Shown: in pieces, positions 61,486 to 64,000 of the stretch
Position numbering within the stretch: the stretch's first letter is position 1
Layout: each line of letters begins with the position of its first letter
Assembly (NCBI RefSeq): GCF_014635845.1
Contig: NZ_BMDP01000003.1
Coordinates: forward strand, 558,001 to 622,000
Source: Oxalicibacterium solurbis
GTDB taxonomy: Bacteria; Pseudomonadota; Gammaproteobacteria; Burkholderiales; Burkholderiaceae_D
DNA length: 64,000 nucleotides
Direction of reading: 5' to 3'
Notes under the pieces: generated by a model
The model's input: the letters and a program-made list of their open reading frames with translations, nothing else
Told to the model about the DNA's origin: nothing
The model's database searches: none
Made by a program: the position numbers and the translations under genes

Positions 61486-62982
61486 TCAGGCTTCGCCGTC
61501 CAGACCGTCCTGTACCTGCTCCGCGGCGCGCAGCACGGCACGCGCCTTGTTCTCGGTTTCCTGCCACTCCATTTCCGGAACCGAATCGGCGACGATGCCG
61601 GCGGCGGCCTGTACATACAGCGTGCCGTCCTTGATGACGCCGGTGCGAATCGCGATCGCCAGGTCCATCTCGCCGCCGAACGACAGATAGCCACAGGCGC
61701 CGCCGTAGATGCCGCGCTTGGTCGGCTCCAGTTCGTCGATGATTTCCATCGCACGGACTTTCGGTGCGCCGGACAGCGTGCCGGCCGGGAAGGTCGCTTT
61801 CAGCACGTCGAGGTTCGACAGGCCATCCTTCAAGGTGCCTTCAACGTTGGAAACGATGTGCTGCACGTGCGAATACTTTTCGATGACCAGTTTGTCGGTG
61901 ACCTTGACGCTGCCGATGTCGGCGATGCGGCCGATGTCGTTGCGTGCCAGGTCGATCAGCATCACGTGCTCGGCGATTTCCTTCGGGTCGGCCAGCAGTT
62001 CCTTCGCCAGTGCCGCATCCTTTTCCGGTGTTTCGCCGCGCGGGCGCGTACCGGCCAGCGGACGGATCGTGATTTTCTTCTTGCCGTCTGCAGTCGCCTC
62101 GTTGCGCACCAGGATTTCCGGCGACGAGCCGACGATCTGCATGTCGCCGAAGTTGTAGAAGTACATGTACGGCGACGGGTTCAGCGAACGCAGCGCGCGG
62201 TACAGCGTCAGCGGCGCATCGACGTAGGGCTTCTTGATGCGCTGGCCGATCTGCACCTGCATCAGGTCGCCGGCCATGACGTATTCCTTGGCTTTGGCGA
62301 CGGCATCCAGATAATCCTTCTTGTCGAATTCGCGGATGGCTTCGGTGCGTACGGAACCGCTGGTGACCGGCACATCGACCGCGCGGTGCAGCTTTGCGCG
62401 CAAGTCTTTCAGGCGCTGGCGGCCTTTTGCAAACGCTTCCGACTGCGTCGGATCGACGTAGACGATCAGATAGAGTTTGCCGGACAGATTGTCGATGACG
62501 GCTAGTTCTTCGGTCAGCAGCAGCTGGATTTCCGGCAGGCCCAGGTCGTCCTTCGGTGCGGTGTTCGCCAGGCGTTTTTCGACATGGCGCACGGTGTCGT
62601 AGCTGAAGTAACCGGCGAGGCCACCGCAAAAGCGCGGCATGCCCGGAGCGATCGCAACCTTGTAGCGCGACTGGAACTGCGCGATGAAATCGAGTGGATT
62701 GCCGTTGAAGGTTTCGATGACGGCATCGTCGCGTACCACTTCGACGCGGTTGCCGTAGCTGCGCATCAGTGTGTTGGCGGGCAGGCCGATGAAGGAGTAG
62801 CGGCCGAAGCGTTCGCCGCCGACGACGGATTCCAGCAGGAAGGTGTTCTTGCCGCCGTTCTGGGTCTGCGCCAGTTTCAGGTACAGCGACAACGGGGTTT
62901 CGAGATCGGCAAAGGCTTCAGCGACCAGCGGAATGCGGTTGTAGCCTTGCGCGGCCAGCGATTTGAATTCGAGTTCAGTCAT
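61486..62982 (-). CDS. trpE: anthranilate synthase component I
   Basis: A 498-residue enzyme starting [24 protein letters not shown] upstream supports the ATG at 62982. It makes anthranilate from chorismate. The tryptophan feedback site near the N-terminus ([11 protein letters not shown] with the LLES-type [17 protein letters not shown]) is intact. The chorismate motifs [47 protein letters not shown] and [11 protein letters not shown] are present. Its expression is probably attenuated by the leader peptide and terminator upstream. Confidence 0.97.
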
Positions 62983-63038
62983 GGTTTTCTCCCGGACCGC
63001 TATTGTAGTCGAGCGGTTCGTCACAGTAGACGGTGTTC

Positions 63039-63075
63039 AAAAAACGTTGCCGACCGCGCACAGGCGATCAGCGGC
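63039..63075 (-). terminator. trp attenuator terminator
   Basis: On the lower strand GCCG and CTG (63075-63069) pair with CGG and CGGC (63056-63049) around one bulged T, followed after four bases by TTTTTT (63044-63039). It lies between the leader peptide and trpE, 57 bases before the trpE ATG. An upstream stem CTGGTG/CACCAG spans the leader stop codon at 63078-63094, and the segment 63071-63081 can also pair with 63099-63108, which would disrupt the terminator. Confidence 0.7.
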
Positions 63076-63084
63076 AGCTGGTGG

Positions 63085-63165
63085 TTAGCACCAGAATTGC
63101 CAGCGTCGCCAGAGCCAGGCCTCATGCGTGCCGGGTGTCGCGAATCGTTTTTTGCCGAGAGACAT
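63085..63165 (-). CDS. trpL: trp leader peptide
   Basis: A 26-codon reading frame on the lower strand that begins MSLGKKRFATP and ends AWLWRRWQFWC. Four of the last ten codons are tryptophan (positions 17, 19, 22 and 25), far above chance, and a terminator hairpin with T run follows. This is the arrangement of a transcription attenuator: ribosome stalling at Trp codons when charged tRNA-Trp is scarce lets RNA polymerase read into trpE. The ATG lies 8 bases after the gph stop and has no clear Shine-Dalgarno, so reinitiation after gph is possible. Confidence 0.85.
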   Translation of the reverse strand: MSLGKKRFATPGTHEAWLWRRWQFWC

Positions 63166-63173
63166 GAATGGAT

Positions 63174-63869
63174 TCAGGGATTGATCAGTTGCGCTGCACA
63201 GAGCAGCGAGGAAACTATACCATCGCTGTCGACTTCTTGTATAGATTGCCCGTGGTTGTAGCCATACGGGACATTCAGCACGCGGCAGCCGGCCGCGCGC
63301 GCTGCCTGCGAATCGTTGATCGAATCGCCGATGGCGACGACTTCCTGCGGTTGCAGCGCGAAATCCTTGCAGACTTGCAGTAATGGCATCGGGTCGGGTT
63401 TTTTCTTTGCGAACGAATCACCGCCGTAGATGATCTCGAAATAGTCGTGCAGGCCGGTTTTCTGCATCAGCGGGATCGTGAAGGCCAGCGGCTTGTTGGT
63501 CACGCAAGCCAGCCGCAAGTCCTTGGCGCGCATGGCCTGCAGGCCTTCGTGCACTTCCGGGTAGGCGGTCGCGTAGTCGCCGTTGATGTCGTGGTAGTGC
63601 CGGTTGAATGCCTGCATGGCATTGGCGAAATGCTGTTCGAGCTGTTCCGGCGAAAAATTCATGCGCAATGCACTGCGCACCAGATTCTCGGCGCCCTTGC
63701 CGACGAAGGAAACCACCGTTTGCCGATCGAGCGGCGCCAGATGCAGATCGCGGCGCACGCGGTTGACGGTTTCATGCAGATCCTGCGCGGTATCCAGCAT
63801 GGTGCCATCGAGGTCGACGATGACGCCGCGAATACCATGCAGCGGCTGCACTGCGGTGTTTCCCGTCAT
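63174..63869 (-). CDS. gph: phosphoglycolate phosphatase
   Basis: A 231-residue HAD-family phosphatase. Motif I is GVIVDLDGTMLDT with the nucleophile Asp, motif II CVTNKP, motif III with FAKKKPDP, and motif IV VAIGDSINDSQAA. It removes phosphate from 2-phosphoglycolate formed by DNA repair or oxygenase side reactions. Its ATG overlaps the rpe stop by one base (TGATG), and the trp leader follows its stop by 8 bases. Confidence 0.93.
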   Translation of the reverse strand: MTGNTAVQPLHGIRGVIVDLDGTMLDTAQDLHETVNRVRRDLHLAPLDRQTVVSFVGKGAENLVRSALRMNFSPEQLEQHFANAMQAFNRHYHDINGDYATAYPEVHEGLQAMRAKDLRLACVTNKPLAFTIPLMQKTGLHDYFEIIYGGDSFAKKKPDPMPLLQVCKDFALQPQEVVAIGDSINDSQAARAAGCRVLNVPYGYNHGQSIQEVDSDGIVSSLLCAAQLINP

Positions 63870-64000
63870 CAGACTTTTGCCAGTTCGCCGCGCATGGCGT
63901 CGATGACGGCTTTGTAATCCGGCTTGCCGAAAATAGCGGAGCCGGCCACGAAAGTATCGGCGCCGGCCTTTGCCGCGGCGGCAATATTGTCGACCTTGAT
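63869..64000 (-). CDS. rpe: ribulose-phosphate 3-epimerase, C-terminal fragment
   Basis: The last 43 codons of the gene, cut by the window end. The reading [20 protein letters not shown] and then [17 protein letters not shown] is the C-terminal phosphate-binding part of the Rpe barrel. The stop overlaps the gph start by one base. The order rpe-gph-trpE is common in Burkholderiales. Confidence 0.92.

Follow-up and report, generated by a model that had tools for sequence, protein, structure and literature searches.

A likely ribosome-mediated trp attenuator upstream of trpE, with a probable promoter of its own, in Oxalicibacterium solurbis

The trpL attenuator of Escherichia coli provides the mechanism that the trpE leader described here is proposed to follow. 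Among the literature matches listed, which leave aside the older comparative surveys of attenuators (those by Vitreschak in 2004 and by Merino in 2008), no account of this leader element in Burkholderiales has been found. The locus described here lies in a window of 64,000 nucleotides, the whole stretch of the Oxalicibacterium solurbis contig NZ_BMDP01000003.1 that was analyzed. It resembles E. coli trpL in that a Trp-rich leader ORF, a terminator with a U tract and a candidate mutually exclusive hairpin stand upstream of trpE, and it differs from it in several respects: the leader has no Shine-Dalgarno sequence (SD), the promoter motif is placed inside the neighboring gene, the candidate antiterminator wraps the stop codon, no separate protector appears in the ribosome-free folds, and TrpR has no match in the own genome. 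PF02081, by which TRAP-type regulation would be recognized, likewise finds no match there, and a search of Rfam has returned no match at E ≤ 5 within 62000-64000 of the window and no gathering-level match in 16 relatives. For a genome in which neither TrpR nor TRAP is matched, the leader would be a definite point at which control of tryptophan synthesis can be tested. A Trp leader upstream of trpE that is similarly free of an SD has been described for rnTrpL/trpL of Sinorhizobium meliloti, with no transcriptional repression by Trp reported (PMC7298713). There the RNA starts at the ATG and is leaderless (PMC7298713), unlike here, where the probable start lies ∼42 nt upstream, and the two leader peptides are dissimilar. 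The TrpL of Campylobacter jejuni is also encoded by a short ORF preceding the trp genes and has Trp close to its C-terminus, yet it has a single Trp codon and belongs to a different lineage (PMC3847290).

The features of the locus, all on the minus strand, are the following:

63174..63869, minus strand: gph, phosphoglycolate phosphatase-like ORF, named after an earlier reading; its 3' end carries the putative promoter
63238..63243, minus strand: -35-like TATACA within gph codons, with an 18-nt spacer, from the promoter scan
63214..63222, minus strand: extended -10 motif TGGTATAGT, in the gph codons D-G-I-V
63165-63085, minus strand: leader ORF with ATG start and 26 codons, MSLGKKRFATPGTHEAWLWRRWQFWC, without SD
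63064..63109, minus strand: candidate antiterminator, one long hairpin that takes in the terminator 5' arm as well as the stop-codon stem, from folding and genus comparison
63078..63094, minus strand: stop-codon stem CUGGUG-CUAAC-CACCAG, the inner part of the candidate antiterminator and compatible with the terminator
63072-63049, minus strand: predicted intrinsic terminator hairpin, GCUGAUCGC/GCGGUCGGC
63044-63039, minus strand: T6 tract, 4 nt (AACG) past the stem, read from the sequence
61486..62982, minus strand: trpE ORF, with a PF04715 match in the own genome

As a preliminary description of this DNA had read from the letters and the list of open reading frames, the 26-codon frame holds four Trp codons, all in its last ten codons (17, 19, 22 and 25, beginning at 63117, 63111, 63102 and 63093), and its ATG stands 8 nt past the stop of gph (63869-63174). 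The same holds for the stem over the stop codon, in which CUGGUG (63094-63089) pairs with CACCAG (63083-63078) and the TAA (63087-63085) lies between them, and for the terminator with its six-T tract, the stem being separated from the tract by AACG. The locus shows one mark of ribosome-mediated trp transcription attenuators, namely a leader ORF of few codons in which Trp codons cluster and which precedes a trp gene. trpE itself is preceded by an SD (GGGAG, at 62993-62989), immediately 5' of which the window can form a hairpin ACCGCU...AGCGGU (63017-62996, minus strand); the last 55 nt before trpE contain other complementary arms, e.g., CCGCC...GGCGG, in many relatives, with a mean z of -1.48 and values below -2 in 25 of 76.

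The reading as Trp attenuation, which the preliminary description had put forward, is supported by a leader that is conserved together with its Trp codons, by a terminator conserved in the genus, and by a folding trend that follows the position of the ribosome, and we regard the locus as a likely ribosome-mediated attenuator that acts on trpE transcription from a promoter of its own. RNA polymerase would start near 63207, within the 3' end of gph, and produce the leader RNA, on which a ribosome would begin the leader peptide at 63165 without the help of an SD. When Trp-tRNA is short, the ribosome would stall at Trp17 and leave the RNA from about Trp19 on exposed, the long hairpin 63109-63064 would form first and capture the 5' arm of the terminator, and the polymerase would continue into trpE. 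When Trp-tRNA is plentiful, the ribosome would reach the stop codon in the middle of this hairpin and open it, upon which the terminator 63072-63049 could form and the RNA would end near 63040.

Conservation of the leader has been followed in the best 80 loci of a scan for trpE relatives, which together with the window make 81 loci. A first rule, calling only for an ORF whose last 14 residues include two Trp and which lies no more than 400 nt from trpE, has yielded a leader with A-W-x-W-R in 79 of the 80 relatives, that of L079 lying farther off, and on this ground Trp17 and Trp19 are taken as conserved. A second search keyed to the motif A-W-x-W-R within 700 nt of trpE has found the leader in all 80, the distance from its stop codon to trpE ranging from 84 to 363 nt; the occurrence of Trp17, Trp19 and Arg20 in 73/73 leaders is circular and not evidence, as these leaders were found by A-W-x-W-R. 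Trp22 has been lost in four of the 73 distinct leaders (window included), to a stop in three (L059, L064 and L071, whose leaders end directly after WLWRR) and to Arg in one. A sequence-only leader model (R1), for which 43 of the 73 distinct leaders were used, matches the own genome once. It also matches 13/13 genomes of the genus and, under stricter filters, 264 of the 294 genomes of the family, in 33 of 44 genera. The 30 of 294 family genomes in which R1 has no match under these filters count against the attenuator reading, and one of them (G013, locus L115) has neither a uORF nor the promoter motif upstream of trpE. Elsewhere in the order R1 has matched 25 of 200 at E ≤ 0.01, mostly weakly, and additional weak matches in several genomes (E about 0.001-0.01) look like noise.

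Among the relatives a leader peptide of the form M(F)LxKKR...EAWLWRR recurs, and pN/pS has been lower in codons 2-7 (0.55) than in the middle (0.82) of 69 leaders. Both would suit a terminated leader RNA or peptide that also acts in trans, for which rnTrpL and peTrpL of Sinorhizobium offer a precedent (PMC7298713). Such an action would be compatible with attenuation, yet we hold it to be unlikely, given that the pN/pS contrast is modest, with neither tree nor codon effects corrected for, and that conservation of the start may serve initiation and that of the core RNA pairing.

With regard to the origin of the leader RNA, a sigma-70-like TATACA-18-TATAGT with TGG before the -10 has been found in the 3' end of gph (one found, 0.4 expected in the scan). 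The extended -10 is exact in 77 of the 81 loci and has one mismatch in the remaining four. In 59 of the 78 loci having gph, the gene could be aligned via its D-x-D-G-I motif, and the Ile codon at the -10 is ATA in 59/59 of them; in the same loci, trpE uses ATA for 70 of its 2396 Ile codons and the rest of gph for 95 of 885. A count of 76/76 ATA 'at the site' is circular and not evidence, as the site was located by the motif itself. The -35-like element of the relatives reads TRTACA, which requires ATA or GTA, and this Ile/Val codon ends in A in 78 of 81 loci, bases 0-8 of the comparison being the anchor itself and not counted as evidence. Third codon positions vary in the adjacent YGYNHG stretch of gph. 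A tblastn match to gph lies upstream of the leader in 77 of the 80 relatives and is absent in L017, L054 and L071, in which an Rpe-like frame, resembling the one upstream of gph in the window, ends 61 to 104 nt before the promoter motif. In these loci the motif stays (exact in L071, with one mismatch in L017 and L054), and so does the leader in all three. Because motif and codon bias are conserved and the motif persists without gph, it is very likely that the 3' end of gph contains a promoter of the leader's own, from which transcription would start near 63207 and give a 5' UTR of ∼42 nt. Such a promoter would clearly illustrate how a second signal can bias the choice of codons, with the three loci lacking gph as natural controls. 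At the probable start site, inside gph codons, the window can form a hairpin CGCUGC-UCUGU-GCAGCG (63208-63192, minus strand), and the start-proximal 26 nt have a mean z of -1.36 over 72 loci.

The preliminary description had assumed instead that the attenuator acts on RNA reading through from rpe-gph and that the leader may be translated by ribosomes reinitiating after gph. The distance of 8 nt from the gph stop and the missing SD would fit this, as would the short gaps between gph and leader in many relatives. The gph-to-leader distance, however, ranges from -14 to 121 nt (78 measurable loci), and both the conserved promoter motif within gph and its retention, together with the leader, behind an Rpe-like frame in the three loci without gph argue against such a dependence, which we consider quite improbable and not the main route. 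Since the motif persists without gph, the leader need not depend on read-through or reinitiation, and transcripts from rpe-gph may add to those from the putative promoter of the attenuator.

That the leader has no SD, another point of the preliminary description, has been seen throughout: SD-like words, when looked for upstream of the leader, turned up in L054 alone of the 81 loci, and not in the window. Duplex energies have been calculated with the anti-SD nonamer. Upstream of the leader their median is +0.4 kcal/mol, with -4 or below reached in 1/81 loci, compared with -6.4 kcal/mol and 75/81 for trpE and with -2.1 kcal/mol and 17% for random coding stretches. G makes up 9.9% of the bases upstream of the leader, and the surroundings of its ATG are predicted to be slightly more open than those of the trpE start (unpaired 0.62 vs 0.55, 81 loci). 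Judging by the weak anti-SD pairing upstream of the leaders, SD-free initiation would be a conserved trait of the family. Owing to the conserved lack of an SD, the leader would allow initiation of this kind to be tested directly at a regulatory ORF; the same lack also weakens the predicted translation of the leader as an element of the attenuator. In L117 and L119, a -10-like TACACT stands 9 nt before the leader ATG and suggests a nearly or fully leaderless RNA, resembling that of S. meliloti.

The terminator hairpin of the window has an energy of -13.7 kcal/mol, and the minimum free energy (MFE) fold of 63170-63030 contains both the stop-codon stem and the terminator, in line with the preliminary description. 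Two properties count against the attenuator reading, namely the 4-nt spacer between the terminator stem and T6, and the fold of the whole leader region, which is not unusual in comparison with shuffles (z -1.77). In the genus, each of the nine pairs between the terminator arms forms in 11 to 13 of 13 genomes. A terminator-like hairpin with U tract, as expected of an intrinsic terminator, is present in the window, in the genus and altogether in 63 of the 81 loci, by a rule that allows a gap of up to 4 nt between stem and T tract and has picked doubtful hairpins in some loci. From these 63 loci a set of 50 sequences was derived by leaving out L021, L023, L027, L039, L046, L052, L061 and repeated leaders, and 31 of the 50 were aligned for viewing only. 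By the same rule no terminator has been found in 18/81 loci, including seven of Cupriavidus/Ralstonia type. These seven (L073, L075, L077-L081) keep the leader and the promoter motif, have no rule-defined terminator within 125 nt and a gap of 267-363 nt to trpE, and another mode of termination is possible there. In the window, CAAAAAACG of the early leader (63154-63146, minus strand) is perfectly complementary to CGTTTTTTG at the T tract (63046-63038, minus strand), and the two pair in the window fold.

For the antiterminator, the preliminary description had drawn a pairing of 63071-63081 with 63099-63108. The notion of a hairpin alternative to the terminator is partly supported, and the pairing as drawn has not stood; folding and genus comparison point to one long hairpin round the stop codon, consisting of the pairs 63109-63106:63067-63064, 63104-63103:63072-63071 and 63101-63098:63076-63073 together with the stop-codon stem, with an A-C at 63097:63075 in the window. 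A stretch of 48 nt that begins at Trp19 and closes with the terminator 5' arm aligns gap-free in the 13 genus genomes, and 90.5% of the cells are paired (n=13), compared with at most 59.9% when the pairing is slid. The pair 63090:63082 is U-A in eight genomes, C-G in four and unpaired in one; it is the only antiterminator pair with a two-sided change, and the outermost C-G pair 63094:63078 forms in just 2/13. Of 500 shuffles, 2 have equaled the number of cells paired, 2 that of two-sided cells and 1 the covariation score. The number of pairs with two-sided change (1, reached by 420/500 shuffles) and that of further pair types (5, reached by 490/500) show no excess. The 48-mer of the window has an MFE of -20.1 kcal/mol and a z of -3.08, and z ranges from -1.17 to -3.08 across the six folded of the 13 genus members. 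Family-wide, complementarity of the Trp22 region to the 5' side of the terminator is weak (p ≤ 0.05 in 12/76 loci; 0.44 for the window), its mean being -11.9 compared with -10.2 for shuffles and -7.8 for the stretch past the T tract. The long hairpin is accordingly claimed for the genus, where it is partly supported by these comparisons, and is weakly supported across the family, in which complementarity hardly beats shuffles. A single A:B helix of GGCAATC with GATTGCC has been rejected as a family-wide antiterminator, its complementarity being just modestly above that of shuffles.

The effect of the ribosome has been modeled with two assumed footprints, as the probability that the 5' arm of the terminator is sequestered before the 3' arm exists. 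With no ribosome this amounts to 0.80 in the window and 0.67 as genus mean. For a stall at Trp17, the two footprints give 0.74 or 0.24 in the window and 0.52 or 0.24 in the genus, for a stall at Trp19 0.04 or 0.25 and 0.04 or 0.09, and for a ribosome at the stop codon 0.16 or 0.02 and 0.04 or 0.03. With the larger footprint the Trp17 and Trp19 stalls are thus alike in the window (0.24, 0.25), which counts against the attenuator reading, and with a stall at Trp22 or Trp25 the window still shows 0.28 to 0.45, the genus means being 0.06 to 0.12. Over the 63 terminator loci, mean sequestration declines from 0.36 (Trp17) to 0.22 (Trp19) and 0.07 (stop codon, 62 loci). At equilibrium the terminator has a probability of about 1.0 in the window and about 0.9 as genus mean under a Trp17 stall, and of 0.48 and 0.87 in ribosome-free RNA; since it wins at equilibrium in all stalled states, antitermination would have to be kinetic. 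The ribosome-free folds contain no separate protector that restores termination before the 3' arm exists, and on thermodynamic grounds an untranslated leader would therefore be predicted to read through. Whether this amounts to a distinct type throughout Burkholderiales, with a promoter in gph codons, an SD-free leader, no protector and expression ON by default, the opposite of the E. coli design, is a tentative and rather doubtful proposition. If it were true, weak or failed leader translation would raise, not lower, trp expression.

Beyond the family, 72 distant loci upstream of trpE have been compared within the order, 70 of them chosen by TrpE out of 99 and two by the leader model. Under a rule that was set after the distant sequences had been viewed (ATG start, clustered Trp codons in the last 12), a Trp-cluster uORF precedes trpE in 39/72 loci and 26 of 47 families, and none is found by it in the other 33 loci. 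On the opposite strand the count is 0/72, and about 1.5/72 would be expected from single-base shuffling; Trp leaders are accordingly common upstream of trpE within the order. The distant uORFs differ in look from the family leader; their anti-SD median is -1.1, with -4 or below in 4/39, and TGnTATA[AG]T occurs upstream in 19/72 loci (0.6 expected). In TnaC, the nascent peptide stalls its own ribosome on free tryptophan, and a W-x-W-R peptide might be imagined to work as a sensor of this kind, with W-x-W-R-like cores recurring across the order and the Arg20 codon being CGA in 68/73 leaders. The cores, however, vary among families (WLWRR, WPWRK, WRWWR, TTWWRW), so that a fixed arrest peptide appears very improbable and a counter of Trp-tRNA, as in the attenuator reading, fits better. 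That the gap between gph and trpE holds no more than an ordinary terminator and an ORF arisen by chance, as the overall unexceptional fold of the leader region in the window might suggest, is scarcely credible in view of the conserved ORF and Trp codons. At one further locus, L205 (G111 contig C25, 16823-17132, minus strand), a tandem duplication has placed a second leader 235 nt from the first; T6 follows both copies, and a piece of a trpE start lies between them. The GGTATAGT motif is present in the first copy only, and the second copy (MLLVKEHNAPQTGPLEAWLWRRWQSCSK) has kept W-L-W-R-R-W and also lies in frame behind the duplicated trpE start.
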